Position numbers and translations under genes: made by a program
The notes under the pieces: generated by a model
What the model was told of the DNA's origin: nothing
Seen by the model: only the letters and a program-made list of their open reading frames with translations
Database searches by the model: none
NCBI GenBank assembly: GCA_948567375.1
Contig: OX419761.1
Span: forward strand, 30,108,243-30,172,242
DNA length: 64,000 bases
Direction: 5' to 3'
Origin: Lunularia cruciata
Taxonomy: Eukaryota; Streptophyta; Marchantiopsida; Lunulariales; Lunulariaceae
In this document: positions 18,236 through 62,393 of the stretch, piece by piece
Numbering within the stretch: the stretch's first letter is position 1
Layout: every line of letters starts with the position of its first letter

Positions 18236-19125
18236 CTCTCAATAGAACCCCAAGGAACAATTGGTACATTGTGGTAGTTACTGATAACCTTACCAAGTGG
18301 ATTGAGGCTAGACCATTGAAGGACAAGAATGAAAATGAAGTGGGTAGATTTCTTTATGAACTCATTATAACTAGGTTTGGATGCCCTTTGGAGTTGGTTT
18401 CTGATAGAGGAGGAAAGTTTATATGAAGCATCACTACAGCCATGCTATGACATTTCTCTATCACACATAGAGTAACAACATCCTATATGCCAAATTCCAA
18501 TGGCTTGGTAGAGAGAATCAATCAGACCTTGTGCATGATGTTGGCCAAAGATGCAGAAATAGAGGGGGCTACATATCATTGGGACAAGAGGATTCATGCA
18601 GTTTTGTAGGAGATATGACAACCATGAAGACTTCCACCGGATATTCTCCATTTCAATTGGTATATGGTATTGATTCTACCTTACCTATTCACTTTGATCT
18701 TCCTACCTTCCAAAGCATTCATAGGAGATTGAAGAAAGCACAAGGAGGTGATGTAGAGAAGTCAAGGAAGGATCAACTCATGGACTTGGAAGAGGTAAGA
18801 GCAGTTGCTATGGTTTGAGTGAAGCAAGCCCAAAGGAAAAAAAGGGGAGCTATGACAAGAGGTAAGGCAAGAAAAAGGTGGAGCCTTTCAGAGAAGGTGA
18901 TTGGGTAATGTTATTTGATTCCATTTGATTCAAGAGAGTGCAAAAGAAGTTTTTGCACTTTGGACCTTTCATAGTAGAGAAGGTGTGGAGCAATTACACT
19001 TATGATCTCAAGGAGTTGGGAGGGAGACACTTTGATAGGATTAACCATGATAAGTTGAAGACGTATCATAGAAGGTAGAGAGACCTTCACTTTGAGGACA
19101 AAGTGAAAAATTAGTAGGGGGTAAA
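18236..19125 (+). pseudogene. G2-P integrase, C-terminal part and 3' tail
   Basis: Integrase core of a plus-strand G2 element: RNNWYIVVVTDNLTKWIEARPL carries the first part, then FGCPLELVSDRGGKFI with the second catalytic Asp, then NSNGLVERINQTL with the Glu. A C-terminal tail with basic residues follows, then a purine tract TTAGTAGGGGGTAAA directly before the LTR at 19126. Stops are frequent (for example near 18424, 18607). The 5' part is absent because CHR-2 is joined at 18235. It is homologous to the minus-strand G2-M copy at 20158-21060. Confidence 0.8.
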
Positions 19126-19466
19126 TGTAACACCCATTTGTGCATGTGTGTGGTATTGTGATATCTAGCTTGGTATTACAAATATTTGAGAGATATAATT
19201 TATATAGAGATAAAGAATGGTTCTACATTAGTCATGATTATCTAAATTTAGTCATAGCTAAGAGAGTGGAAACCTTACTTGAGAAGAAGTGGAAAAGATG
19301 AGCACCAATATTTTGGATTCTAGTGTATTGACTTGGTAGTATTCTTAGGTGTTTGGCTTTATGGAAAGAGTTGAGAACTCTTGGGCCTGTAAGCTTTTTT
19401 ATTTTGGAATCTTCTATAGTCCAAGGATAGCCCAAGTGCAGGCATCCTTGACTTAGTGGTTGGTTT
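19126..19466 (+). repeat. G2-P 3' LTR, first part
   Basis: Begins TGTAACACCCATTTGTGC after a purine tract and breaks at 19466, where G2-M is inserted. The missing part resumes at 35998, giving 691 bp in all, the same as the two G2-M LTRs. Confidence 0.88.
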
Positions 19467-20157
19467 TGTGAACCGGCATGTCTCTCACTCAAGATGAACC
19501 TCTGATGGCTATTATGGAAGCGCACCATGGACTAAGAAGGCAAAGAACCCCAACTCCATCTTACTCCTCCAAGGCCAACACTCCAATACTTAAGACATTG
19601 CTCACTAAAGAACTCAATGAGAGAGAGATAGTTGCAGATGAAAGGATGATGAGTACTTCCTCACCCCTTGTTTATATACTTGTGAAATAATTATGCACCA
19701 AAGTTACTAATAATTGGAATACCTAAAGTTACTAGGCTAAAAGTCAAGTAAAGTCAAAAAGTATAAAGGAATATCTATTCACATGGGCATATTCCACTAA
19801 GCATGTGATTTTATCTTGACCCAACCACTAGTCAAGGATTCCTTCACATGGGCTATCCTTGGACTATAAAAGAATCCAAAACAAAAAGGCTTGCGGGCCC
19901 AAGAGTTCTCAACTCTTTCCTCAGAGCCAAACACCTAGGAATAATACCAAGTCAGCACACTAGAATCCAAAATAGTGGTGCTCATCTTTTCCACTTCCTC
20001 TAAAGTAAGGTCCTCTCTATCTTAGCTATGACTAACTCTAGCTAATCATGACTAATGTAGAACCATCCTTTATCTCTATATAAATAATATCTCTCAAGTA
20101 CTTGTATTACCAAGCTAAATATCACAATATCACACACATGCACAAATGGGTGTTACA
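19467..20157 (-). repeat. G2-M 3' LTR
   Basis: 691 bp, minus-strand ends TGTAACACCC and GGTTCACA. It is preceded on the minus strand by the purine-rich TTAGTTTGGGAGTAAA (plus 20158-20173), the polypurine tract that primes plus-strand synthesis. Confidence 0.9.
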
Positions 20158-21576
20158 TTTACTCCCAAACTAAGTTTTCACTTTGTTCTCAAAGTGAAGG
20201 TCTCTCTACCTTCTATGATACATCTTCAACTTATCATGGTTAATCCTATCAAAGTGTCTTCCTCCCAATTCCTTGAGATCATAGGTGTAATTACCCCACA
20301 CCTTCTCCACTATGAAAGGTCCAAAGTACTTAGGTGAAAACTTCTTTTGCACTCTCTTGAATCAAATGGAATCAAATAACATTACCCAATCAACTTCTTT
20401 GAAAGGCTCCACCTTCTTCTTGCCTTGCCTCTTGTTATAGCTCTCCTTTTGTTTCCTTAGGGCTTGCTCCACTCAAACCACAGCAACTACTCGTACCTCT
20501 TCCAACTCCATGAGTTGATCCTTCCTTGACTTCTCCACATCACTTCCTTGTGCTTTCTTCAATCTCTTATGAATGCTTTGGAAGGTAGGAAGATCAAAGT
20601 GAATAGTTAGGGTAGACTCAATACCATATACCAATTGAAATGGAGAATATCCAATGGAAGTCTTCATGGTTGTCCTATACTCTCACAAAACCGCATGAAA
20701 TCTCTTGTCCCAATGATGTTTAGTCCCCTCCATTTCTGCATCCTTGGCCAACATCATGCATAAGGTCTGATTGATTCTCTCTACCAAGCCATTGGAATTT
20801 GGCTTATAGGATGTAATTACTCTATGTGTCATAGAGAAACATCATAGCATGGTTGTAGTGATGTTTCTTATAAACTCTCCTCCTCTATCAAAAACCAACC
20901 CCAAGGGGCATCCAAACCTAGTGATAATGAATTCATAAAGAAATCTACCAACTTCATCTTCATTCTTGTCACTCAATGGTCTAGCCTCAACCCACTTGGT
21001 AAGGTAATGAGTAATTACCATAATGTACCAATTGTTCCTTTGGGTTCTATTGAGAGGACCTACAAAATCAATTCCCCACTTCTCAAAAGGTCCTAGCAAT
21101 GGAATTGATCTAAGTGGTGGAGTGGATGTAGAATTTCTAGCAAAAGCTTGACAAACATGACAAGTTTTGCAATAATCAAGACAATCCTTGAAAATCCCTC
21201 TCCAATGGTAACCTGCATCTAGAATCTTGAAAGTAGTCACCTTTCTTGCAAAGTGTCCTCCACATACTAAACCTTCATGAAACTCCTTTATGAGTAGGAT
21301 AGACTCTTCCTTACCCACTACTCTTCGAAGTATACCATCTGCTCTTTGGTGAAAAATAATATCCTTCACCATTGTGTAAGGTCTAGATCTTGCTGCAAGG
21401 GCCTTCCTCTCCCTAGCATGCATCCCTTTTGGATAGTTGCCTCTTGTCACAAAATCCATAATCTCCTTGTACTTCATTGGAACCTCTTGAGTGATTGAGA
21501 TTTTCATAGGCTCCTCATCCGGGAAGGAATCATCCACTGGCTCATCTCCATCATGATCATAGGCCATAGATAACAA
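20158..21576 (-). pseudogene. G2-M integrase and 3' tail
   Basis: Integrase, which joins cDNA to the chromosome. The best open stretch, 20842-21576 (244 codons), holds a spacer, the zinc-binding HHCC domain (FHEGLVCGGHFARK, CKTCHVC) and the core with the first Asp in KWGIDFVGPLN and the second in FGCPLGLVFDRGGEFI. The Glu helix is read after a frame break around 20790 (NGLVERINQTL); 20473-20667 carries the C-terminal part of the core. The tail to 20158 is basic and stop-broken. No chromodomain or PHD finger is seen. Confidence 0.83.
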
Positions 21577-21599
21577 ATTTGCATTTGCATGTTTCTTCC

Positions 21600-22677
21600 C
21601 TAGCTATCATCAATGTCATAGTCATACTCAGACAAGAGTATCATCCACCTTGCTAGTCTCCCTTCCACATTAGGCTTGTTGAAGATGTATTTCAAAGCCT
21701 TGTGATCTATGACAATTGTGGTTTTCCCTTCAATCAAATATTGTCTATAGTTCTTGAGACCACAGATCACTGCCAACCCTTCTCTCTTTGTGATAGAGTA
21801 GTTTTTCTCTATTGAAACCATCTACCTACTAGCATAAGCTATTGGATGATCATACCCATCTTGGTCTAATTGACTAAGAGTGCATCTTATAACTACATTA
21901 GAAGCATCAGTGTAGAGGATGAAAGGCTTACTCCAATCAGGTTTAGCAAGAATTGGAGCTACAACAAGGGATTGCTTGAGCTCCTCAAAAGCTTTGAGAG
22001 CCTCCTTGTCTTCTAAAATCACCATGTAATCTACACCCTTCTTCATGTAGATGTTCAATGCATAAGCCTTGTTGGAAAATGAGAAGATGAACCTCCTATA
22101 GTACCCAACAATCCCCAAGAATTGGCGTATATTTGTCAAGCTTGAAGAGAATGAAGGTTTGAGATTTTCCTCACCTTCTTAGGATCAACTCCTATTCCAT
22201 CCTTGGAGATGATGTGCCCCAAAAGTAGACCTTCTTCACATCCAAAAATGCACTTCTCTAGGTTGAGTGATGCATTTGCCTCATCCAAGCATTGCAAGAC
22301 CTTAATTAGTTGTTCAAAGTGCTCCTCCTTGCTCCCATAGACACAAAAGTCATCAATGAAGTCTCTCACAAATTTCCTAATGAAAGGTTCAAATACCTTG
22401 TTCATGAACCGTTAGAATGTGGCTAGATCATTGCAAAGCCCAAAAAGCATGACCTTGAAAGCATAAGTTTCCCAAGGTGTGGTGAATGTGGTGAGTTGTT
22501 GATGCTCTGGTGCAATCTTGATTTGGTTTTATCCACTATAACCATCCAAAACTATACCTCTCACAACCTACAACCTCCTCTAAGATCTCAGTAATGGGTA
22601 GTAGTCCTTCTTGGTAACAGCATTGAGCTTCTTGTAATCCACACGTACCCAAAGCTTGCTATTATTTTCCTTCACAA
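21600..22677 (-). pseudogene. G2-M reverse transcriptase (C-terminal part) and RNase H
   Basis: RT palm and thumb followed by RNase H. RT continues from 31362 across MET: joining at the 4-bp duplication gives SPIVIVKENNSKLWVRVDYK in frame. Then KLNAVTKKDY near 22610, the catalytic RDFIDDFCVYG (FIDD) near 22350, and LLGHIISKDGI. RNase H reads FILYTDASN near 21915, KALKYIFNK and RLARWMILLSEYDYDI at 21600-21821. Stops and frame breaks separate 22136-22405, 21822-22139 and 21600-21821. Confidence 0.83.
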
Positions 22678-23340
22678 TGTCGTGCGTATATACATCATTA
22701 CACAACATACATCGTTGTCAACATCATACACTATAGAAGCACAAATCACACATAAGTCATACATAGACTCTAAAGTGCCACAATAATAAGATTGCTTAAC
22801 ACTCTCAACTCAACTCAACTCAGATCAGTACTTGATCTGTCACTCTATAAACTGCCAACAACTAGGCACTGATTATAGTCAAGCCACACCCACTCAAGCA
22901 TAGAGAATCTAGGTGACGCTTGCCGGCCTTTGTCCACCATAGCTAGGAACTCGAAGGCTCAACATCAGAGAAGTGAGCTCTCTGGAGCTCACTTTGAAAC
23001 TATACCCCCTGGACTCAAGCTAGCATTGAAACCCTAACAATCCCACTGACGGCACACTCGATGGTGCAAACGGTGCAAAGTGACAGTGGGCCCCACCGTG
23101 AAGTCAGTACCCCGAACACAAAATCTAACCGTCGGAAAGTAGTCTCTGAGAAACTGCTAGAATAACTCTAGCTACTATCACTGGAACTCTAGTGTCCGAG
23201 CATCTAGATGCGGAACTACAAATGGCGTGATAATTGTTGTGCGTATATACATCGCTACACAACATACATCGCTGTAAACATCATACACTATAGAAGCACA
23301 ACTCACACATAAGTCATACATAGACTCTAAAGTGCCACAA
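22678..23340 (-). repeat. MET 3' LTR with a flanking direct repeat
   Basis: LTR 22678-23232 (555 bp; minus strand TATCACGCC, mutated from TGTCATGCC, to GCACGACA). The terminal segment 22678-22784 is repeated next to the LTR at 23238-23340, and a purine run AGGGGAGCG (plus 23342-23350) precedes that repeat on the minus strand. Only about 305 bp of this LTR (22928-23232) aligns with the 5' end of the element, so the LTR pair has been rearranged. Confidence 0.65.
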
Positions 23341-23508
23341 TCGCTCCCCTAGCTGGCGGTTAGGTCCCTCTAACTCCAGATAGCCATCTACTCTAAGTAT
23401 ATGGTATACCCTCTAATGGGCAAAGATCAAGAGGCCGAGTGCTATGGAGCCCCATCGTTAGTCGCTTGTCTGCAATCTATACCATATAAAGAATGAACTA
23501 GCTATAGG
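23341..23508 (-). other. MET 3' non-coding stretch
   Basis: Between the PHD stop and the terminal repeat. It holds a purine-rich run (minus AGGGGAGCGA at 23341-23350) suited to a polypurine tract, and otherwise nothing recognisable. Confidence 0.4.
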
Positions 23509-24909
23509 TCAAGTACATCTAGGACATAACCACTGTCCCTGAGGAACCAACGTGAGGGGAGGAGTCATACATGCCATATGCCATCCTCTTGAACAACTAT
23601 CACACACTAACATAGTAGCAGCTCCACCAGAAGAGCCACATAACATACACCTCAAGTCTGCACGTACAAGTGCCAAGCTTGGGTCCATAGTACCATCAAT
23701 GTTTGGAAGGTGGCATGGCACACAATTGTGTACATGATCCTTCGAAACAACACCATTACGTCCTTCTAACACAAGGACTTCAGATGGCAAAACCTCGCGC
23801 ACTCTCAAGATAGTGCGGCTTGTAGAAACATCAAGTGTTGTTGGTGCTGTCTGTTGTAGATATACATAGTCACCTGGATGAAATCAACGGATCGAGGGTC
23901 TATAACCTCCTCCTGGAATGGTATCATAACGTAAAGTATCTCTATGCTGAGCAATTGCCAAGTTCTCAAAGGCCATCGGCATCACTCTCTGAAAGATCTC
24001 TACCCGCTGAGAACATGCGCTCATCCATACATCGGGGTCATCCAAGTCCAAAACTATAGTAGCATCTTGATGAATGGCTACAGGTAAATCTGGATCTCAT
24101 CCATAGAGTAGATAGTATGGAGAGAAGGATGCTAAGGAGGCTTGCCGGCTGAATCGATAGCCCATGGTCAACCACGGTAATTGGAGATCCCAATCTCCTA
24201 AGTGACCTCTCTGCAAACCATACTTTTGCAATCCTCTCTTCATTGTCTGAACCACTCTCTCTGCTAAGCCATCTGCCTCAGGGTGATCTCGGGATGTAGT
24301 ACAATGATCAATCAAAGCCTTGTCACACAAGACCTGAAACTCCCCCAAGAACTCTATACCCTGATCAATCAAAACCTCAGCTAGTGCACCAAAATGACTA
24401 AGAACTTGATCTAGGAATGAGTAAGTTGTCCCTTCACTAGACTTGTCAGGAAGTTCCACCAACTCAATCCACTTGGAGAAGTGCTCCACCATCACCAAAA
24501 CATACCAATGATGTCTCACAGTCAGCGGTAAAGGTCCGGCAAAGTCCAAACTCCAACGGTAATCCAATCCCATGATAGGTAATGGGTGTAACTATGGCGT
24601 AGGAGCATTGAATGATGCTCTAACTCGGTCACAAAGCATACATCTGGCAACAAACTATTATACCTTGGTCTGCATACCGCGCCACCAATAATGACTTTGG
24701 AGTAAGCTATATGTACGCTTTACTCCAAAATGTCCTAGCTCCTCATGAGCATGACGGACCAACTGTGGTCTCTGTGCTGGAAGTGGTACTACTCGCACTC
24801 TACCACTCCTCCCATACATGCAAAAGGTGTCTACCCTCCAATCTGAACCGTCTGGCTTGCTGAAGAACATGGTCTCTCTCCTTGGCCCCAACCATGCCAC
24901 CCACAACAC
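23509..24909 (-). pseudogene. MET integrase with C-terminal PHD finger
   Basis: Integrase: zinc domain HAHEELGHFGVKRTYSLL at 24658-24780, with the Cys pair in the decayed stretch after it; core 24097-24573 with Asp in SLDFAGPLP, Asp in VLIDQGIEFLG and Glu in EADGLAERVVQTMKRG; then an SH3-like C-terminal part (FHPGDYVYLQQ, ILRVREVLPSEVLVLEGRNG). The polyprotein ends with a C4HC3 PHD finger at about 23511-23652: CMLC, CDSC, WHMAC and CPRC with spacing of the family, stop immediately after. PHD fingers read histone H3 tails (H3K4 state); here it could steer integration as chromodomains do in chromoviruses (inference). Breaks: stops near 24096 and 24655 and around 23878. Confidence 0.85.
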
Positions 24910-26515
24910 CAGTGCAAAGATAGTCCATCACTAAGATATCATCATGAATGTCTCGCTGAACTATACCAATATCTTCACTCTCTGGATTTGTGACCTCAAT
25001 AACTCCTCTTGTATGCGATGAGAGAGATACCACCAAAGCCTCTGCAAATATACACAAAAAGGCCGATGCATGCCAACCTGGCACCATCTCCTCATCTGTC
25101 TCACCATGCCAACATGCTCCGGTCTGATCCTGCTGGCTGGGACATGGGTTTCTACTTAACTCATCTGCATCACGGTTCACCACTCCAGGTCTGTGAACAA
25201 CCGTAAAATCATACTCTTGTAAAATCAGAGCCCATTGTGCAAGCTTCCCTGAAAGCTTGTCAGACTCCATCAACCACTTCAACGGCTGATGATCAATGAT
25301 GAGAGTGAAGGGGTTACCAAATAGGTAACATCAGAAATGTGCTACTGCCCAAAATATTGCCAAGCACTCTCCCTCATATGAACTATATTTTGCCTCTGCT
25401 GAATTGTTGGAGCGACTAGCATAGGCCACCACAAACTCCTTCTCCTCATCATCATGTTGGGTGAGCACCGCTCCAAGCCCCAACATACTCCAATCAGTAT
25501 GAACCTGAAATGGTCGTCCCCTGATCGGTCTCCTCAAAATAGGAGCAGATGTCAACCTCTTCTTGAGCTCTACAAAAGCTCTATCCTGCTCATCTCCCCA
25601 ACACCACTCTTGTGTAAGCTTGGTCAGCTTCGTCAAGGCCTTGGTAATGGCACTAAATCCTCTAACATAGCGGCGATAGAAGTTCACCAACCCAAGGAAT
25701 GCTCACACTCTGGTCACATCCATAGGCCGAGGAATACGTGCAATAGCCTACACCTTGGTCTGCTGAACACCAAGTCCTCCGGGGTAGATAGTGTGACCCA
25801 AATACTCAACTTGCTTGTGGAAGAACCTACACTTCCCAGGATGTAGTTTGAGGCCATGAGATCTCAACCTCTCAAACACCTCCAGCAACTGTCTCTCATG
25901 CTCCTCCACAGTAGTGTTATAAACCAAAATGTCATCAATATAGCACCAAGCAAAATCCAATCCAGCTAGGATCCTATCCATGATCCTCTGGAACTCAGCA
26001 GGAGTGTTCTTTAACCCAAATGGTAAGAACCTCCACTAATATAACACATCCTTGCCGTGAGGATCAATAGCCCAAAATGTTGTCTTGGACTTATCCTCCT
26101 CCCTGATTGGCAACTGATGATATTCCGCTTGAAGATCCAAAGTACTGAAGATCTTTGCATGCCCAATCGCATCAAAAATCTCCTCCGGTGGTGGCATGGC
26201 ATACCAATCAGCCTTGGTCTATCGGTTGATAGGACGGTAATCTCCACACATCTGCCTATTCGTATAGTTGCCATGCGTAGCCTTCATGGCTGGCATCACT
26301 GTCGCTGATGCATACTCTCTATGTGAAATCTCCACCAAACCAGCCTCAAAAAGGTCACTACTCCGGCTCTGAATCAATGTCCTCTCCATCTCACTATATC
26401 GATAAGGACGCCGGAAAACTGGTGTGTCGCTAGTCAGCTCAATCCGTATACCAGGTCCCTTCAAAGCACCCAAATCCTTCATACTGAAGGCAAAACAACT
26501 CGTGTGACTCCTCAA
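24910..26515 (-). pseudogene. MET reverse transcriptase and RNase H
   Basis: RT starts at about 26515 (MKDLGALKGPGIRIELT, then PVFRRPYRYSEMER and YASATVMPAMK), followed by a stop-broken segment and the palm FAWCYIDDILVYNTT (catalytic YIDD) at 25748-25981. The thumb/connection reads MVNFYRRYVRGFSAITKAL (25331-25690), and RNase H follows with FQVHTDWSMLGLGAVL (the usual DAS reads DWS) and YSSYEGECLAI; WALILQEYDFTVVHRPG and NRDADELSRNPCP (about 25150-25260) close RNase H. All blocks are in the same frame as the methyltransferase upstream. Stops and the Asp-Ala-to-Asp-Trp change show this copy is inactive. Confidence 0.85.
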
Positions 26516-26889
26516 GAACCTCCAAACCCTCTGTCTTTCCTCTCCAGTAAGCTTGGGTCCAAGATCTGGCTCCCAAGTATCCTTTGTAACAGTAGTAGGA
26601 GTGGAAGATGTACTAATTGACTGCTACATTGGGCCCTTGGGAGCAATAGTGACATGCTCCCGACCACTAGAGGTCCCAACCTCTGTGTGAAAAACTCCCT
26701 CCACTCTGGTTGCAAGCTCCACACATCCTTTGGCTGCATCCCATGTGGACCAAGGGTGTAATCCAAGTAGTCCACGCTCACTTGGATGGACTCCAAGTAG
26801 ACCACTCTCCCTAGTAGCTACTGGATGTGTCCCAAGAATACCATGTGCACTCGGTCCATCGCCCCCAGCATATGCCTAAATTGTCTCGA
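26516..26889 (-). pseudogene. MET linker between methyltransferase and RT
   Basis: Stop-broken coding-like sequence linking the two enzymes. It reads HGILGTHPVATREGG with repeated LGVHP/LGLHP motifs near 26760-26850, then WSTWDAAKGCVELATRVEGV. The same stretch is present at 40189-40262 and 44045-44220 in MET-2, which shows the linker belongs to the family. No known domain seen. Confidence 0.55.
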
Positions 26890-27919
26890 TAAGCACAGGG
26901 CTCACAAGTGTCCGAGTGGTGATGCCTATCAAGCGCATCCTACGCTGCTCTGCCAAGCCAACGCTCACAATCCAGGTCAAACAATTCATGTCCATAGCCT
27001 ATCCTAACACCTGACGCCTGGATGCCTCTGACACTACTGGAACAGAGGTAATACTGGTGCAAAAACCCATCACCCGCTCTCTCTCATCAGCATTGGACTC
27101 CACCAACTGCTGTAACTGTGAGTCCCAAACAAGTCCAAGTCCTCCCTCTCAAAAAGCATGAGAGCTTGGGAAACTCATGAGTGTGGGAAATGCGGCTCTA
27201 GGCTATCCAACTAGGTTCACCACAGCCATAGGTAACCTATCAGCCACTACCACTATCTGAGGCTGACGCCCAACATCCAAGATATCATCAACAAGAATGT
27301 GGTCCAATCGCTGAATCACATCATAAGCATGCTATAGAACCTCTCTGGGTAAGAGGTTCATCCACCAAAGACGAAGACGATGAGCCCATGATCCCACTCT
27401 GGCTGCATCTAACAATACCGCATGTCCCATCCAAGAATGGACCTGATGTGTACTCACCACCACTCTGGTGCGAAAATCACCCAACAAAGGAACATTCTCC
27501 AGAAGGTAAGTTGGAGAAACAGACTGATGAACCTGGAGATGTCGTAGTATCCGTAACATCTCCCAAAACACACCAAAATGAGGATCCTGAAGACCCAAAC
27601 CACAGCCTGCACGTGTATGTCCCTGACATGGCCATCCAGAAATCACCAAGTGAATAGGCCCATGTCTCTCTAGGTCATGTGCCCCCAGTAAGGAAATGTC
27701 TCCTGGTAGGGCCTTCTGGTAACCTCTGACTGCTGACATTGATAATAACTCCGGATACCGATAGGCCAAGTGTGCCACATGATGTAGAGAGACTTGCCTA
27801 GCAGTCTCATCTCTCTCTACATATAAGTACCTCTGTACTCGTATACCCGCCTGTAACACCGCAACTAGTCCGGTGCTGATCCCACCAAACAACTCCAATA
27901 GGCATATCCCCTCTACTGG
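26890..27919 (-). pseudogene. Cytosine-5 DNA methyltransferase domain in the MET pol
   Basis: Transfers methyl from S-adenosylmethionine to cytosine C5. Motif I LLELFGGISTGL near 27865-27905 (AdoMet site); motif IV SGWPCQGHTRAG near 27610-27645 with catalytic Cys; motif VI LLENVP at 27490-27507 with the catalytic Glu; motif VIII HRLRLWWMN near 27358-27385; target-recognition-like region about 27130-27330; motifs IX/X ERERVMGF and RRQVLG-AMDMNCL at 26984-27080. The ATG at 27898 is internal: the frame runs in from the protease (same frame, TAG at about 27920) and out into RT. About 340 residues, normal for the domain. Stops at 27331 and 27001 are TAG; others follow. Subfamily (DRM/DNMT3, MET1/CMT or bacterial-like) is undecided. 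Confidence 0.88.
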
Positions 27920-27922
27920 ATA

Positions 27923-29128
27923 CTACCAAGCAATGAGTGTGGTATCTAGAGATGTCAAAGCAATCGCCTCTAGAGGCTCATCCTCACACTCATCTCCTGA
28001 TGGTACGAAGGCTCCACTCCAAGCCTGCTGCACCAACTGATCTGCATGTTGCTGCAATGCCTCCTCTGAACTCCACAATGGAACATCCAAGGTGGATGGA
28101 ACAATCCGACTCGTACTCCAAAGCCGAGTGATCTCCTCTGGTACTGGAGTATCCTCTGCATGGGCGTTCCCCTCCAACAAGTCACCAGGCCAAGTAACTG
28201 CACCGCTGAAAGCTAAAATTGATGCTGCCATGGTCCTGGACTGTAGTGAGCCAAGATTGCCACTACTAAAGCGTACTGGTAGGCGACATACCCGTCCCTC
28301 ACCAGACTGCCAACCAAGTCTATAAGAGGTTGTCTCCTCCCAATAGTCAATGCTGAAACCCATGGGGTATAACACTGCTCCCCCAACTAGTACATCATAT
28401 GACTCAGCTATCGTCACAATAGCCTGAGCTCTCACCACCAAGCTATCAGTCGGATGACTAGGCTAAACCTGGACAAAAAGCTCTTCACGTGTGATGTACT
28501 GTGTCGAACCACCACCAAGAGATGTCTGGATCTGAAATGGACACTTCTCCACATCGGTCTTCCGTAACTCCAAACCAACAAGTGCAGCCTTCCCCAACAT
28601 AAGGGGTTGTGCACCAAAGTCTAACAAGACTCTCTCTGGTGTATAGACCTTCCCTGAAGGTCCCACCAAACAAAAAATCCCCCTCTGGTTATCCAATAGG
28701 ACAACACTAGGTGTAAACCGCGCTCTCTCAAAGGCCGGTCTAGCTGGCAACTCCTCCAATCTAGCCGCTACTGCCTGCCATAAACCACTGGTCGCTGAAC
28801 GGATCCCATGCTCCTCAACCAAGTCAGCTCCACTACCAACCACCTCTGCTCTAGTAGTAGGAACTGCACCATCCCTACTCTCACACAATGTGGCAGCCAA
28901 CTGGAATATTGGGGCTAGGTCAACTCCCAATGTAAACATGTCACTGGCTGAAAACAAAGGATGCCACATAATCAGCTGAGGCGCCCCCAACATCATGCTA
29001 GACTCAGTCTGTGTAGTAGTAGGTGGCTGACTAGCAGGTAGTCCAGCATGTACTCCATCACCACCTACCACACTTGCACTGGGACGTCTAGGAACCATGG
29101 ATGTCGTCTGCAATGCCTCAAATAGCAT
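27923..29128 (-). pseudogene. MET aspartic protease region
   Basis: 28463-29128 has a Ser/Ala/Gly-rich spacer and then the retropepsin core: VLLDFGAQPLMLGKAALVGL (active site DFG, where DTG or DSG is usual), PFQIQTSLGGG. 27923-28441 continues in the same frame with VGGAVLYPMGFSIDYWEETT, a protease-end motif, and a long spacer toward the methyltransferase. One stop (near 28462) separates the two. The protease would release Gag, methyltransferase, RT and integrase from the precursor; whether it cuts the methyltransferase free or leaves it fused cannot be told. Confidence 0.75.
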
Positions 29129-29134
29129 GAAAGA

Positions 29135-30903
29135 CTAGGGAAGTCTGACCTGTCTCCCAACCTCTCCTCTCTGTGGGTCCAACTCCACTGATGCTCCTCT
29201 AGGCTCTGGAGCACGTACTGCACTCCTAGTCACTGCTGCAGATGCATCCACCTGTGCTGCTCCGCACATGAAGTCCAAAGCATCTCTATCACCAGCATAT
29301 GAGGTGGAAGCCTCAGCACCCGAATCTGATCTCCTTTGAGCAATAGCCATACTAGCCAATCTCTGCTCCAACTGCTCAATCCGAGTAGCCATAGCTGTGT
29401 CAAAAGTAAGGGCAGGTACTGCACCTCTACTAGATGTAGATCCTCTACCACTACCTCTACCACCTCGTCCTCCATGAACTAGAGCTCCTCTACTACCTGC
29501 CATAGCAGCCCTACCACTCCGTAACTCCGGGTGTATGTCAAAACACTGGTCACTAGTGTGACCAAATCTGTGGCAATGCTCACACTGCCTCTGTGTTGGT
29601 TGTGATGCACCAGAGGTATCAGGTCCGTTGCCCTGAGTACACTCTCTCCTATGGTGAGGTCCGCCACAAGTCCAATAAGCAACACCACCACTCATTGGCT
29701 ACTGCTAACTCAAAAATGATGGTAAGGGTCTAACTCCACTAGGCCCTCCACTCGCTCCATAGGATCTGGGCTGTCCACCCTGTCCTCAAAAACCAACTAG
29801 GCGTGGTGCACTCTGCTGCACTCTAGAAGAAGTCATAGCCGTGGATGAGGTCTCCCTACCAAATCCAGATGTCACCACTCTCTCCTCCACCATATTGAGC
29901 TCAATACGCTCAGCCAAACCAAAGACTACTGCCAAAGTGGGTGAAGTAGCTTGCAACAACGTAGCATCACAAACTCTACGTCGTAACTCCCTGTCTAGTA
30001 CCCCATACCAAAATGGACTGCCTGGGCCTCAGTAACTCCTTGAGTGAAATTGATCAGCCGCCTCATGCGAGTGTATGCCTCGCGTAGGCTCTCCCCAGCC
30101 TTCCGCTAGAACTCTTGCAAGCTCCTCAGCTTGTCAGTCCGCACTCCCTAGTAGTTCTACCTCAAACATAGGAAGAACTCCACCATGGGGTTAAACCCCG
30201 ATACCACACCACCTCTTGCAGTGATACCTCCACTCGTAGTAGCACTATCTCCAGCTAGTGCACCTCCACTAGCTCCACCAACACTACTCGAGCTAGAACT
30301 TGTAGGTACAGCCGATCTACTCCTGGCCACCGAGCCTGAAGTGATGGAGACATAGTGTGGAGACCAATACTGTCTCCATAACTCAATCTCCTCCAAATGA
30401 GCTCTCCTGAACTCATGGTAGTCATCCATCGGCGGACCCTCCAGATACTGAAACAACCCCTTCCATGCCATGAAGGGTGTGAACAAAGTCGGGTTCCGCA
30501 TCTGCTGCAGATCACACCAACTGTCAAACTCTTGGATGAAGTCATCCAACTCAATGGTACCCACTGTACCAGAGTAACGCCTAGGGCCTTTGGAGGCCCC
30601 ATAAATCTTGTCCATGTCCCACAACAACGGTGCAGACACACCAAGTGCACTCTCAACTGAATCAGCTCTTGTGTCGAACTCCAACTCAGAGTCAATCTCC
30701 TCCCTCACTGGGACCTGAGATACAGGCTGATACCGAGCACCACTCCAAGTAAACCCACTATGTATTGCAGGGCTAACTCCTTTGGAATCTCCAAAGAACT
30801 CCGTCATGACAAAGTAACCACAATAGCAAACCCGAACCACCAATTGCAACCGCAAGTCGCAACCGCAAGTACCCCACCAAGTGCCAACACCACCAAGCAC
30901 CAC
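29135..30903 (-). pseudogene. MET gag with two zinc knuckles
   Basis: 30157-30903 is the capsid-like part: GTIELDDFIQEFDSWCDLQQ, FTPFMAWKGLFQYLEGPP and DDYHEFRRAHLEEIELW, followed by a Ser/Gly linker. After a frame change, 29135-29695 has CWTCGGPHHRREC and CEHCHRFGHTSDQC, the second a clear CX2CX4HX4C knuckle, then Gly/Arg-rich sequence (RGGRGSGRGS) and a short coiled stretch (IEQLEQRLASMA). Start unknown; 30903 is the first ATG of the open frame, but the true start could be the MTEFFGDS Met near 30805. Stops near 30155 and 29133. Confidence 0.8.
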
Positions 30904-31361
30904 CCACTAATGTAACTCTAACCGAGATAACTACACTAGGGGAAAGGGCAACCTGTAACCTGCCATCATAACACATACTCTCACGGTCTGCAGGTCATCA
31001 CTTCCTACCTCACCGAAGAGAAACAAAGGTAGTCTGACTGGTCATCACTCTAACTGCCTCTGTCCCCCATAGCCAGGAACTCAAAGGCTCAACATCAGAG
31101 AAGTGAGCTCTCTGGAGCTCACTTTGAAACTATACCTCCTGGACTCAAGCTAGCACTGAAACCCTAACGGTCCCACTGATGGCACACTTGACGGTGCGAA
31201 TAGTGCAAAGTGATGGTGGGCCCCACCGTGAATTTAGTACCCCAAACATGAAATCTAACCGTCGGAAAGTAGTCTCTGAGAAACTGCTAGAATAACGCTA
31301 ACTACTATCATGGAACTCCAGTGTCCGAGCATCTAGATGTGGAACTACAAATGGCATGACA
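30904..31361 (-). repeat. MET 5' LTR (about 305 bp recognisable) and leader
   Basis: 31057-31361 starts TGTCATGCCATTTG on the minus strand and aligns with 22928-23232, including a GTGGGCCCCACCGTG core and GTCGGAAAGTAGTCTC. Beyond 31057 the two LTRs no longer align. 30904-31056 is leader-like sequence related to 45900-46110; I could not find a primer-binding site in it. Confidence 0.65.
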
Positions 31362-32283
31362 ACAATCACAATTGGAGACACCCATTCTAAATTCTCTACC
31401 TCAAAGATAAATCCAACCTCCTTGAGCTTATCAATCTCCTCCTTCACAACTAAAGATATTGGTGGGCTAATGCGACATTGCTTTTGGCGGATTGGTCTTG
31501 CATGTGACTCCACCTCTATCTTGTGCTCCTCCAAGGTGACTTCCTTCAAATCCTTATAATTGAAAGAAAACACATGGATGAATTTGCAAAAAATCTCCTC
31601 AAATCTCACTTTCTTCTCCTTGGTAACATTTGGGCCATACTTGAGGGTAGCTAACCTTCTCTCTACCTCCTCAAGTGTCAATGGTGATTTATTTGGGTCC
31701 TTCAAAACCCCTGGCTTAGGTGAAAAATCTATAGCACACGAGGGATATACATCTGAATCCAATTCAAATTCATCCTCCTCTGTGGAAGTCTCCTCCTCCA
31801 TGCTTGTGTCCACACCTGAAGCTCCTTCTTCAAAATCTGATTTCCAATAATCAGAAGATGGTGTATCTGAATGTGAAGTGTTGGTGGTGTTAGTTATAGG
31901 AACTAGGACTCTATGGTTTGATGGCCCAATCCTCAAGTACCCTTTGTGCCATCGATCAGTTGTGTGTGCTTCTCTCAACCATGGCCTCCCGAGAAGTAAG
32001 TCATAGCTTGAATCCTTCAAGACTTGGAAAGTCATGAGATTTTGAACTCCCATAACTGAAACTACCACTTTATCCATCACCCCTACTAGTCGAACTTGTT
32101 GCTTGTTTGCTATGCTCATCAAAAATGTTGAAGGCCTTGAGTGTATCATACCCAACTTCTTCATCAACCTTGATGATAGCATTCATTGATAATCCTCCAT
32201 CCCGAACTTGGGGATGGAGGATTATCCTTGATGTTGTGACCATTTACTCTCACATCAATCTTGGAGGCATACTCACAAGTCTC
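31362..32283 (-). pseudogene. G2-M protease and start of RT
   Basis: Open stretch 31298-32182 (its last 21 codons are MET sequence). It reads MLSSRLMKKLGMIHSRP, NLMTFQVLKDSSYDLLLGRPWLREAH (protease second motif), an acidic spacer with a Ser/Glu run, the pol linker LATLKYGPNVTKEKKV, RT entry VEVESHARPIRQKQCRISP and EIDKLKEVGFIFEVENLEWVSPIVIV. RT then continues past MET at 22677. The segment that should encode the DTG active site (32188-32226) is occupied by a 16-bp perfect inverted repeat, which destroys it. Confidence 0.8.
32188..32226. repeat. 16-bp perfect inverted repeat in the G2-M protease
   Basis: GATAATCCTCCATCCC (32188-32203), seven-base loop, GGGATGGAGGATTATC (32211-32226). Lies where the active-site codons of the protease are expected. 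Confidence 0.85.
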
Positions 32284-33760
32284 TCATGGTGCTGGTTTGG
32301 CATCCACCACCCCCATTGATGTTGGAACTTTTGCCTTCTTCTTCCTCTTGCTCCTTGTAGAACTCAAATCCCCCCTAAACTCCTTTCTCAAAGTAGGATT
32401 CAAAGCAATCAATTGGCCCACTGTGATGTTAGCCTTGTGACTACCAACATCCTCCAAGACATTGTAGTTCCATTGTTGCTTTGAGATCAAGAAGTTCTCC
32501 ATCCCCAAGTTCTTCCTTGGAGTCTTTGTTGTTGATGGTGTTGAAGTGCTTGTGCAAGTACTCCTAGTAGGCATAGGAGTATCTTGGCTAGGAGTAAATC
32601 CTTGAGAAGAGTGCACATCCTATGCAAAACAAGCTCTCTTCTTCTCTTGTGCCAAAAGCTCCAAATTAAGACTTTGGCGTTTGAGCACTCTCCCTTCTCA
32701 TACTTGATCTCAACCACATCTATAGATGTTATCCCCTTACCTTTTTTTGGATAAGGAGCCACTTGGGTTTCACTACCTCCCTCTTTCTCTCTATTGGCTC
32801 TCTCATAAGTCCTTCCTCCATGGTAAGTGGAATTTGGGCAATTCCTTTGGATATGGACTCTTCCTCCACAACCAAAACAATTTCTCTCATTGAAATTGTT
32901 GGTTGGTTGGCCTTCTCTATATGGATAACTTCCATAACTCCTAGGCCCTCTCCTCACATTCTGATCCACCTTTCTCTTCTCCCATAGTTGCACTACATTG
33001 ATCTTGAGATCTGCAAGTTATTTTGTGATGGTTTGAAGTGGATCCGTTGGTGGAGGTGCAAGAACAGGAGCAACTACTATTTGTGGTGCAACCCTTGCCA
33101 CCAAATTATCAAAAGTTCCACCATACTTGTAACTTTGAGGAGGATGCACAACCTCCTTCACCACCAAATCAGTCTCATCCCCTTCCAAACTCTCCTCCAT
33201 ACAAATTGCAATCTTGATAGCTTCAAACTTGGAAGAAGGTTTCTCATATCTCACATTGCTTCTAATTTGTGGTCTCAACCCTCTCCAAAAAAATTTGGTG
33301 AGCATGGCCCCCTATGCCAATCATAGAAGTCTCAACATCATCCCCACCCTTCCTCAACACTATGTGAAATCTGGAATCTAACTTTTCCACTCTTCCACAC
33401 AGACTCTCACTTTCTCTCCATCTCCTTGTTTGAGAAAAGTAACCTCACTCATCAATCTCTCATAACTCTCATCTGGAAGAAAGTTCTCAATGAGTGTTGA
33501 AGTTAAACTCTCCCAAGACTCTTCTTCCCCATCTCTCCTCTCTCTCTCACTTTTGGTATTCTAACTCATACCATGTAAGTGCTACATCCTCAAAGAAATC
33601 AAGTAATAATGAGACCCACTCATTCTTCCTCCTCTCATTGTTTCCTATGCAAGCTTTCTTGAAGTCTCTCACAAAGGCCTCCACATCTTCTCCATCCTTG
33701 CCAAAGAAAATTGGAAGCTTCCCTATCTTAATCCCTCACTATCTTTCTTTTCTCTCAATT
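32284..33760 (-). pseudogene. G2-M gag and CCHC knuckle
   Basis: Gag core at about 33340-33760 in decayed frames (LPIFFGKDGEDVEAFVRDFK, WVSLLLDFFEDVALTWYELE, ENFLPDESYERLMSEVTF) then 33018-33305 (FFWRGLRPQIRSNVRYEKPS). 32487-32993 holds the knuckle NCFGCGGRVHIQRNC (first Cys pair kept, third position H in VH) and a Lys/Glu-rich stretch. 32284-32616 is a low-complexity Thr/Ser linker that leads to the protease. Stops and frame shifts are common. Role: capsid and RNA packaging. Confidence 0.75.
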
Positions 33761-60212: not shown

Positions 60213-60635
60213 TGTAAAAGACCGAAACCAAGGAGAGAAATAGGAGAATGGAAATTCACATTGGGACACTTGAATGAGGGAAAACTCCGAATGCCTAGCA
60301 TGAGCTTTGGCCTTGGTATTTATAGGTAGCATACAAGACCCTTGAAGCTTCTCAAGGAGTTTCCTTGAGCCGCTTTCTTGGAGTGCAAGCCAAGTTAACT
60401 AGGAAGCTTCTCAAGAAGCTTCCTTCTAGAAGCCGCCTACTTGGCGTGCAAGCTAAGCTAGTTAGAAGCTTCTAGAAGCTTCCTTCTAGAAGCTACCTGC
60501 TTAGGGCGCAAGTTAACTAGTTGGGAAGCTTCCTAAGAAGCTTCTTAGATGCTTCTAGAATATTCTAGGCTATTTTGTCTTATTCTCTACTTCGTAAGCC
60601 CGACTAACTTCGTCATTAAACTCCATATTGTTACA
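60213..60635 (-). repeat. CHR-4 3' LTR
   Basis: 423 bp; minus strand TGTAACAATATGG to GGTCTTTTACA. TATA box at plus 60317-60324. A purine tract GCGGCGGGGGAATA (plus 60636-60649) directly precedes it on the minus strand. Confidence 0.93.
60403..60491 (-). promoter_or_regulatory. Heat-shock-element-like array in the CHR-4 LTR
   Basis: GAAGCTTCTAGAAGCTTC at 60465-60482 is four perfectly spaced alternating pentamers (GAAnnTTCnnGAAnnTTC), followed by TTCTAGAA at 60484-60491; GAAGCTTC at 60403-60410 and 60415-60422 and TTCTAGAA at 60424-60431 lie on the other side. It sits about 140 bp upstream of the TATA box on the minus strand. In plants such arrays bind heat-shock factors; function here is inferred. 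Confidence 0.65.
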
Positions 60636-62393
60636 TATTCCCCCGCCGCTAGTTGGTGACGTCCTCGTCGCCAGTGAAGCTTCGAATTCCTTGATGGCCA
60701 TCTGTGCATTCTGGAGGTGAGAAAGAGGTTCCCATGTAGCATCATGAAGGGGATACCCTTTCCAAAGGACCTTGTACTCCGTATGTTGGTGACGGCCTCG
60801 TTGAATATGGCGATGCGCAAGGATACGATCAACTTCGTACTCCTCATGATCATTGATAGGGACAGGAAGAGGGGGAGGTTGGACTCGAGAGGAAAAGGAA
60901 GAAGGGTTAGGAACAAAGGGTTTCAACTTGGAAATATGAAAGACAGGATGGATACGCATGTGACAAGGTAAGGCAAGACGATAAGCAACAGGAGAGATAA
61001 TGTGGGTGATATCAAAGGGTCCTATCCAATTAGGAGCAAGTTTACGAACTTGGGTATCAAGTGGGAGAGGGAGGTTACTAGAGGATAGCATGACTTTATC
61101 ACCAACTTCAAAGGTGAGATCACGACGATGATGGTCTGCATATTGTTTTTGGCGATTCTGAGCAACAAGGAGGTGAGATTTGGCTTGTTGGAGAGATTGG
61201 GATATAGTGGTCAAGAATGTAGAAGTATGAGGAACCTGAGAGGGAGGGGGAGCAAGAAGAGAATCTGGAACAAGCGGATCTTGGCCAAAATTGAGAAAGA
61301 AGGGAGAAAATCCAGTGCTTGCCTGTTTGGAATTGTTGTAGGCAAATTCTGCAGCTGCAAGACATTCATCCCAGTTGGTATGGTGGACATTGACAAAGGC
61401 CCGCAACATATCCTCCAATGTACGATTGGCGCGTTCGGTTTGTCCATCAGTTTGAGGATGATAGGCCGTGGACAAAGCAAGCTTGGTGCCGAGTATCTGG
61501 AAGAGTGCTTGCCAAAACTTCCCGGTAAATCGAGGATCACGGTCGGAGATGAGTACACGTGGCATCCCATGATGCTTGAAGACATTGTCGAAGTAGATTT
61601 GCACTAAGGTTGGAGCATCCACGGTATCACAGGTTGGTGCCAAGTGGATTTGCTTACTAAGCTTATCCACAAACACCACAATTGCAGTGTGTCCTTGTTT
61701 TGTCTTTGGCAAGGATGTGATGAGATCCAAGCTCACATGCTCCCAACGAGCGGATGGAATGGCGAGTGGTTGAAGGAGTCCACTCGGCTTCTGGTTGTTG
61801 GCCTTGTTCCGTTGGCAACTCTCACATGATCGGACAAAGTCTCGAACATCTCGTGTCATGTTGGGCCACCACCATTGGCGTTGGAGGGTGCCCAAGGTCT
61901 TGTCCACTCCCATGTGACCAGCTATTGGTAAATCATGGGCTTCTTGAAGGCGCACAAGTCGAAGATCACCTTTGGTTGGAACATAGATCTGGTCTGCATG
62001 GAATAAAAGGCCTTCCTTGAAGGAGAAGGTGTTGTACTCCTTGTCACGTGCCGTTAGACGACCGTGTACCATTTGGAAGAAGGGATCTTGCTATAGGGCT
62101 AACCGAAACTCGTTATGAATCTTGGGATCAATTGACACTGTCGTAATTGCTGCCGCAATGAGAGGAAGAGACTTCAAATCAGGTCGTCGTGATAGAGCAT
62201 CAGGGATGACATGGAACCGACCTGGTTTGTACTCAAGTTTGATGTCGAACAGTTGGAGTTGCTCTTCCCATCGATGATGTCGACTCTTCATGTGCTCTAG
62301 GTATAAGGTCTGCAACAATGGCTTGTGATCAGTTCGCATGATCACTTGTTTCCCCAAGAGATAATGCCTCCATACCTTGGTGGCATATACCAT
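60570..62393 (-). pseudogene. CHR-4 RNase H end, integrase and chromodomain
   Basis: 62091-62393 ends RNase H (TDHKPLLQTLYLEHMK, IPDALSRRPD). A TAG at 62088-62090, where CAG is expected, separates it in the same frame from 60570-62072 (500 codons). This has the zinc domain (HMGVDKTLGTLQRQWWWPNM, CESCQRNK), the core with Asp in SLDLITSLP, Asp in LISDRDPRFTG and Glu in DGQTERANRTLEDML, a GPF-type C-terminal region (APNWIGPFDI), and a chromodomain (YEVDRILAHRHIQRG, YKVLWKGYPLHDATWEP). Chromodomains bind methylated H3 and direct integration into heterochromatin. The frame overruns the purine tract and 65 bp of the LTR, so the stop is inside the LTR. Confidence 0.92.

Follow-up and report, generated by a model that had tools for sequence, protein, structure and literature searches.

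The window analysed here, a stretch of 64,000 nucleotides from Lunularia cruciata (Marchantiopsida; assembly GCA_948567375.1, contig OX419761.1, positions 30,108,243 to 30,172,242 of the forward strand), contains on its minus strand, at 31361-22678, a decayed Ty3/gypsy-type retrotransposon that encodes both a cytosine-5 DNA methyltransferase (MTase) and a PHD finger. The element is nested within another gypsy element: it interrupts the reverse transcriptase (RT) of that host element, whose coding frame resumes on both flanks, and it is bordered by a 4-bp target-site duplication (TSD), TTGT, at 31362-31365 on the 5' side and 22674-22677 on the 3' side. The limits of the copy, from repeat A1 to repeat B2 (termini TGTC and GACA), were located by script, as was the TSD; the span given in the original prediction was too short, gag lying upstream of it.

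Read from its 5' end, the copy starts with terminal repeat A1 (31056-31361), which is shortened in comparison with most other copies (449 bp); as in copy L009, part of A1 and of the leader is lost. There follows the stretch of open reading frame (ORF) 1 (26627-30906), which comprises a gag with CCHC knuckles, a protease and the MTase, and which is broken by stops in the window but open for 1,428 aa in L009. The protease-like stretch lies approximately at 28480-28680 and reads LLDFGA (LLDSGA in 20/23 copies), and the DNMT3-type MTase occupies 26756-27883 (coordinates transferred from L009). A probable leaky stop, UAG-CAR-YYA (TAGCAGTCA, 26618-26626), separates ORF1 from the ORF2 stretch (23512-26617, from ORFs and domains). 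Within the latter, RT (25786-26262), RNase H (25210-25599) and the integrase H2C2 finger and DDE core (24280-24777) were positioned by transfer of coordinates from copy L011, and a C4HC3 PHD finger at the integrase C terminus (23515-23649) was delimited by Pfam, a PDB profile and a check of its ligands. As originally predicted, the PHD finger stands at the stop codon: ORF2 closes with TGA at 23511-23509, directly after it. Repeat comparison then gives the 107-bp repeat B1 (23235-23340), directly preceded by a purine-rich tract that may be a polypurine tract (23341-23350), and the second copies of both repeats, A2 (22784-23232) and B2 (22678-22783), all on the minus strand.

The window copy is dead: read at aligned codons, its ORF1 stretch contains 14 stops and its ORF2 stretch 10. 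Pfam recognized PHD (1.6e-11), rve (1.8e-11), RNase H (1.3e-29) and DNA_methylase (7.2e-7) in its pieces, and no convincing match was obtained with the broken RT, with the protease or with the two gag pieces; Rfam, run on window positions 22000-32000, and a scan of the whole window for tRNAs returned nothing. The original prediction placed protease, MTase, RT and RNase H in a single frame, followed by the integrase. The frame is indeed shared in the family, but in the window copy it is broken by stops, and a UAG follows the MTase; similarly, integrase and PHD do lie downstream, but the integrase shares the frame of RT, the UAG separating only ORF1 from ORF2.

This copy belongs to a large family. 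In the 566-Mb genome, a 30-base mark for the PHD finger occurs 4,993 times and one for the MTase 3,869 times (at most 3 mismatches), while the reversed patterns, used as controls, occur 0 times each, which excludes chance matches. Contig C1 was examined for exact matches over its first 28.44 Mb: of 46 MTase marks, 28 are followed on the same strand, after 3.8-4.1 kb and most commonly 4,056 bp, by a PHD mark, and none has one 3-6 kb upstream; the remaining 18 may have altered PHD marks. The copies studied individually are the window copy and 22 others, 20 taken from methyltransferase matches with long open frames and two added from an MTase protein search; the sample therefore under-represents stops, and the 22 carry the MTase by selection. 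In the protein searches of the genome, only the best candidates were scored (150 of 8,579 and 109 of 14,311). All eight zinc ligands of the PHD finger are kept in 23/23 copies. Pfam identified RVT_1 (3.3e-31), RNase H (4.1e-35), H2C2 (2.6e-18), rve (1.2e-12) and PHD (2.2e-10) in the most complete ORF2s and DNA_methylase (3.4e-7) in the most complete ORF1s of other copies; gag and protease had no Pfam match in these ORFs, gag showing two CCHC-like knuckles. As in Ty3/gypsy elements, RT, RNase H and integrase follow one another in Pol, the integrase with an H2C2 finger and a DDE core. Pfam, the genome marks and the 23 copies confirm that MTase and PHD finger belong to one retrotransposon family. 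ORF1 is whole (1,428 aa) in 2 of 20 copies and ORF2 (1,037 aa) in 2 others, none of the 20 having both whole. Most of the insertions measured are recent, since A1 and A2 differ little (0.2-3.4% in 14/15 copies; 10% in L020). Separately, the strongest DNA_methylase match in the genome, L001 (5.3e-20), is perhaps an exon of a host methyltransferase.

The terminal repeats are not those of a standard element. The family layout is A1 (449 bp, TGTCACGCC...), a leader of ~0.9-1.2 kb, ORF1, UAG, ORF2, B1 (107 bp), GC, A2 (449 bp) and B2 (107 bp, ending ...CACGACA); instead of two complete long terminal repeats (LTRs), one per end, A1 stands alone on the left and B1-GC-A2-B2 on the right, i.e. split direct repeats of the kind found in DIRS/PAT elements. 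The sequence 3' of A1 resembles a primer-binding site for initiator-Met tRNA in 7 bases only, as judged by eye. TSDs of Ty3/gypsy elements are usually 4-6 bp long, and a 4-bp TSD flanks 15 of the 18 assessable copies (21 were examined): none was found for L020 and L025, and L022 was scored as a miss, an alternative A1 start giving CCCA on both sides. The B1-A2 junction measures 2 bp in all 19 copies in which it was found, GC in 13 and AC, GT or AT in six, and the GC junction creates the palindrome GACAGCTGTC, which is the product expected from joining both element ends with 2 bp between them. This suggests that the split repeats originate from a circle cut within the LTR: the replicative LTR would be B-GC-A, a two-LTR circle would form, and integrase would cut it at GACAGCTGTC inside one LTR to yield A-body-B-A-B.

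Of 16 insertions with readable flanks, 4-5 sit in older copies of the family itself: both flanks lie within such copies for L014, L022 and L026, which have a TSD, and for L020, which has none and may be a recombinant, and one flank does so for L027. As the family makes up roughly 8.7% of the genome (4,993 x 9.9 kb, full length assumed), the probability of at least 4 nested insertions is 0.045 and that of at least 5 is 0.01. The nested insertions fit a preference for silent, repeat-rich DNA, in a small sample.

The two ORFs are in one frame, gag-protease-MTase preceding the UAG and RT-RNase H-integrase-PHD following it. TAG is the stop in 23/23 copies, and CAR-YYA comes directly after it; since this context matches the readthrough signal UAG-CAR-YYA described in PMC2194720, ribosomes are likely to read through it. 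The MTase, lying on the Gag side, would then be made in Gag-like amounts and be more abundant than RT and integrase.

The original prediction recognized a cytosine-5 methyltransferase, which can now be placed as DNMT3-type, with signs of selection. Indeed, a profile built from ten family MTases matches DNMT3A best in the PDB (3.8e-23), ahead of 4onj (4.1e-12; presumably a plant DRM), HaeIII (9.9e-11), HhaI (1.7e-9), a DNMT2-type enzyme (3.6e-8) and DRM2 (3.1e-7), scores that rule out other MTase-family labels. An AlphaFold2 model of the homologue P0153 (34 sequences, pLDDT 88.6), distinct from the window copy, retrieves DNMT3 chains throughout the 50 Foldseek matches listed, with TM-scores by target up to 0.83. 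By closest profile and predicted fold, the family MTase is thus DNMT3-type; ADD and PWWP domains are not among the Pfam matches of ORF1. Of 95 MTases, 91 retain the catalytic Cys, and the ENV motif has its Glu in 92 and its Asn in 93; ten family members are 37-72% identical. Selection was assessed by comparing variants shared by at least 3 copies with singletons, amino-acid changes being expressed relative to the expectation for the same mutation classes (p values uncorrected; a copy was excluded from any region in which its gaps exceeded 30%, leaving 21/23 for gag and 23 elsewhere). Shared variants stood at 0.37 of expectation versus 0.72 for singletons in the MTase (p 0.06), 0.32 versus 0.73 in RT (p 0.09), 0.19 versus 0.82 in gag (p 8e-5), 0.42 versus 0.88 between gag and MTase (p 0.04), 0.24 versus 1.05 in the integrase C terminus with PHD (p 0.04), 0.09 versus 0.79 in PHD alone (four shared variants, p 0.08), 0.50 versus 0.69 in integrase (p 0.32) and 0.44 versus 0.73 in RNase H (p 0.42). 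Taken alone, the value for the MTase is suggestive of selection, and conservation across family members is the stronger support.

The best PDB matches of the PHD finger include CHD4, KMT2D, PHF12, KMT2C (MLL3), KDM5, KAT6A, DPF, PHF21A, ATXR5 and UHRF1, several of which are readers of histone H3 unmodified at lysine 4 (H3K4). In readers of trimethylated H3K4 (H3K4me3), a Trp stands two residues ahead of the ligand His. None of 60 proteins with C4HC3 spacing has Trp there: 55 have Gly, four Ala and one Pro; the finger is accordingly predicted to prefer unmodified H3K4.

Relatives of the element were identified in several hosts. The nearest named proteins come from Riccia, Calypogeia, Marchantia and Sphagnum, and members with MTase or PHD also occur in Klebsormidium, Chlamydomonas eustigma and, by database code, Chromochloris. 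Of 152 proteins, 58 contain MTase pieces (66 in total), and 70 PHD pieces were counted; a single ORF holds MTase-RT-RNase H-integrase-PHD in 4, RT-RNase H-MTase-integrase-PHD in 10 and RT-RNase H-integrase-PHD in 35. A midpoint-rooted RT-RNase H-integrase tree was built from 91 of the 153 proteins, the named hosts being Calypogeia, Klebsormidium, Closterium and, by database code, Tetraselmis. Every protein labelled by the PHD or MTase profile falls in one clade (0.99), where the element stands together with the MTase element of K. nitens. The first branch, P0072, has an upstream MTase and a PHD finger, and the forms with the MTase in the middle make up one sub-clade (1.00). An MTase tree of 95 of 178 matching proteins, rooted on P0072 with no outside group and including Marchantia and Sphagnum, also joins the middle-MTase forms, weakly (0.50). 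The simplest reading is therefore a single old acquisition with one relocation. In Sphagnum fallax, the gene model P0094 comprises a gag knuckle, an MTase, a piece of RT and an integrase and shares 81% identity with 13% of the ORF2 query, so the family inhabits peat moss as well. Three proteins of the middle-MTase sub-clade, P0140, P0144 and P0147, extend 277-324 residues beyond the PHD finger; in P0144 the motifs DPWAGTGT and VVTSPW of this stretch resemble, by eye, a second methyltransferase of the amino type, and the stretch has no match in Pfam or the PDB. Outside the clade, the gypsy polyprotein P0113, with a SCAN-type gag, carries a PHD finger between RNase H and integrase, an independent gain.

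The closest described system is KnitGypsy-Dnmt3 of Klebsormidium nitens (de Mendoza et al. 2018, PMC5890265), which bears out the charophyte precedent mentioned in the original prediction: it likewise has a gypsy-type Pol in which a DNMT3-type MTase precedes RT, and the legend of Fig. 4 of that article gives it DIRS-like repeats with Gypsy domains, so that the split-repeat arrangement had already been seen, although the legend offers no explanation for it. The L. cruciata element adds the PHD finger, the UAG-CAR-YYA signal, thousands of copies and a bryophyte host, and its MTase is not within the same uninterrupted Pol ORF, a UAG preceding RT in 23/23 copies. P0044, a K. nitens protein of the KnitGypsy-Dnmt3 kind that shares the clade of the element, ends before the PHD position, but another K. 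nitens relative, P0054, does carry a PHD finger; the term PHD occurs 0 times in the main text of PMC5890265 (figures and supplements aside). SymbioDIRS-Dnmt3, a DNMT3 in dinoflagellate DIRS elements, is described in the same article. The L. cruciata element shares split direct repeats with DIRS/PAT-type elements but has a DDE integrase and a 4-bp TSD; Pfam finds rve and no recombinase family, i.e. no tyrosine recombinase, which rules out the DIRS label. Chromoviruses are Ty3/gypsy elements with an integrase chromodomain. The element resembles them (see PMC3605345 for that chromodomain) in having a chromatin-reader domain at the C terminus of a gypsy integrase, but the label is ruled out by Pfam, which gives PHD in place of the chromodomain and no Chromo; it also has the additional MTase and the split repeats. 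Finally, the DNA transposon Ginger1-9_HM (PMC2836005) combines a gypsy-type integrase core with a C-terminal PHD finger, plus Ulp1, but is a Hydra DNA transposon described without RT or MTase. The original prediction knew of no described element with both domains. The literature that we searched, which excluded most subscription journals, agrees, as it yielded no gypsy element with DNMT3 and PHD, but protein databases do hold unnamed polyproteins with both. DNMT3 in a gypsy Pol and DIRS-like repeats are already known from KnitGypsy-Dnmt3, whereas the lasting PHD-DNMT3 pair, the abundance in bryophytes, the leaky UAG and the split repeats A1...B1-GC-A2-B2 served by an integrase are apparently new. 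According to a 2019 article (PMC6338049), land plants have no transposons that encode a methylase; this statement, as it stands there, is contradicted by the bryophyte hosts of the MTase/PHD members.

The methylation history of the copies was read from singleton C>T changes in 21 copies (L021 and L028 left out). Changes per site amount to 0.0205 at CG, 0.0174 at CHG and 0.0036 at CHH, against 0.0008 for T>C, an excess that reveals present or past methylation of the copies at CG and CHG. Relative to T>C, the ratios at CG, CHG and CHH are 25-27, 21-23 and 4-5 in ORF1 and ORF2, and 27, 23 and 2 in a neighbouring gypsy family that lacks the MTase (756 bases in 18 copies; few events: 1, 5 and 6). 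With the integrase piece only, the ratios of the element family become 45, 33 and 6, each family then resting on 4 T>C events. Hypermethylation specific to the MTase family is therefore not clearly seen in this comparison of 21 with 18 copies, and self-silencing as a special trait, proposed in the original prediction, is not borne out by the context of C>T decay, given the few events in the neighbour. The observed/expected (o/e) CpG ratio is 0.41-0.52 in four family copies versus 0.06-0.13 in the neighbour, which indicates a smaller loss of CG from the source copies of the element family; elsewhere in the window it reaches 0.65. The host gypsy element at window positions 20840-22200 and 31400-32600 is itself nearly CG-free (o/e 0.06-0.13) and CHG-poor, far beyond the element inserted in it.

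The reading that we favour, tentatively and at somewhat less than an even chance, is that this gypsy-type family of thousands of copies, with its DNMT3-type MTase and integrase-borne PHD finger, methylates its own new DNA and steers it to nucleosomes with unmodified H3K4. The MTase, encoded ahead of the UAG, would be made at Gag amounts, enter the particle with Gag and methylate the double-stranded cDNA; the integrase-PHD, produced by readthrough, would hold the complex on silent chromatin (H3K4me0), so that new copies would land where harm is small, already resembling host heterochromatin. Several observations weigh against it. At CG and CHG, the C>T ratios of ORF1 and ORF2 equal those of the neighbouring gypsy family, and the CpG o/e values speak against heavy lasting methylation of the source copies. 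The selection test on the MTase alone reached only p 0.06, uncorrected, and the MTase of the K. nitens relative was inactive in yeast, a result that its authors call inconclusive (PMC5890265). The insertion bias rests on 16 copies, and a single-sequence structure model of the PHD finger was uninformative (pLDDT 31.8). Moreover, the listed ORFs of five clade members (P0053, P0062 and three from Closterium) show no MTase and no PHD, which means that clade members may lack the pair or carry it elsewhere. A wider version of the same idea, which we consider doubtful, would extend it to an old green-lineage gypsy clade with a write-and-read kit, in which born-methylated cDNA, PHD-guided delivery to heterochromatin and circle cutting within the LTR would provide the camouflage that enabled thousands of copies.

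Other explanations were also weighed. The MTase could shield particle cDNA from host nucleases or deaminases, or modify RNA, chromatin state being irrelevant; we hold this for a real but minor possibility. The shielding of cDNA was proposed in PMC5890265 and suits an MTase encoded with gag ahead of the leaky stop, as for a particle protein, but leaves unexplained the retention of PHD alongside the MTase over much of the clade. We also know of no plant cytosine deaminase of that kind. Unlikely, in our view, is an MTase that limits copy number by working in trans on host DNA or by silencing its sister copies, with the PHD finger aiding integration in general. The strong CG and CHG C>T footprint agrees with such self-limitation, and PMC5890265 raises slowed retrotransposition as a possibility; however, the family grew to thousands of copies with the low A1/A2 divergence reported above, and its footprint is not clearly above that of the neighbour family.

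Many PHD fingers read H3K4me3, and an aromatic residue lies close before the first strand in 8 of the 60 PHD fingers, a point that also counts against the favoured reading. The integrase PHD might thus target active, H3K4-methylated chromatin rather than silent chromatin, but this is improbable: Trp is missing at the cage position in 60/60, the nearest fingers with solved structures have, for the most part, the opposite specificity, and insertions are nested in the family itself. Finally, the idea that MTase and PHD are later separate insertions or assembly artefacts has nothing in its favour, deserves next to no credence and is ruled out by the constant places of both domains in 23 copies, the 28/46 exact pairs and the homologues with the same order in other species; no copy that was read lacked either domain or carried them as separate insertions.

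Two further features were noted elsewhere in the window. A large inverted repeat at 18236-21056 has ~1.2-kb arms that are 90-93% complementary and separated by 376 bp, one arm overlapping a gypsy integrase frame at 20842-21603. On the minus strand, at 60570-62090, a 506-aa ORF is integrase-like with a chromodomain-like end (EYEVDRIL...YKVLWKGY), as judged by eye.

DNA methylation is a host weapon against transposons, and a successful transposon that keeps a DNMT3 together with a PHD finger on its integrase reverses this arms-race view. Because the family is abundant, most of its dated copies are young and relatives exist in Marchantia, a laboratory plant, both methylation of the cDNA and PHD-dependent targeting are directly testable.

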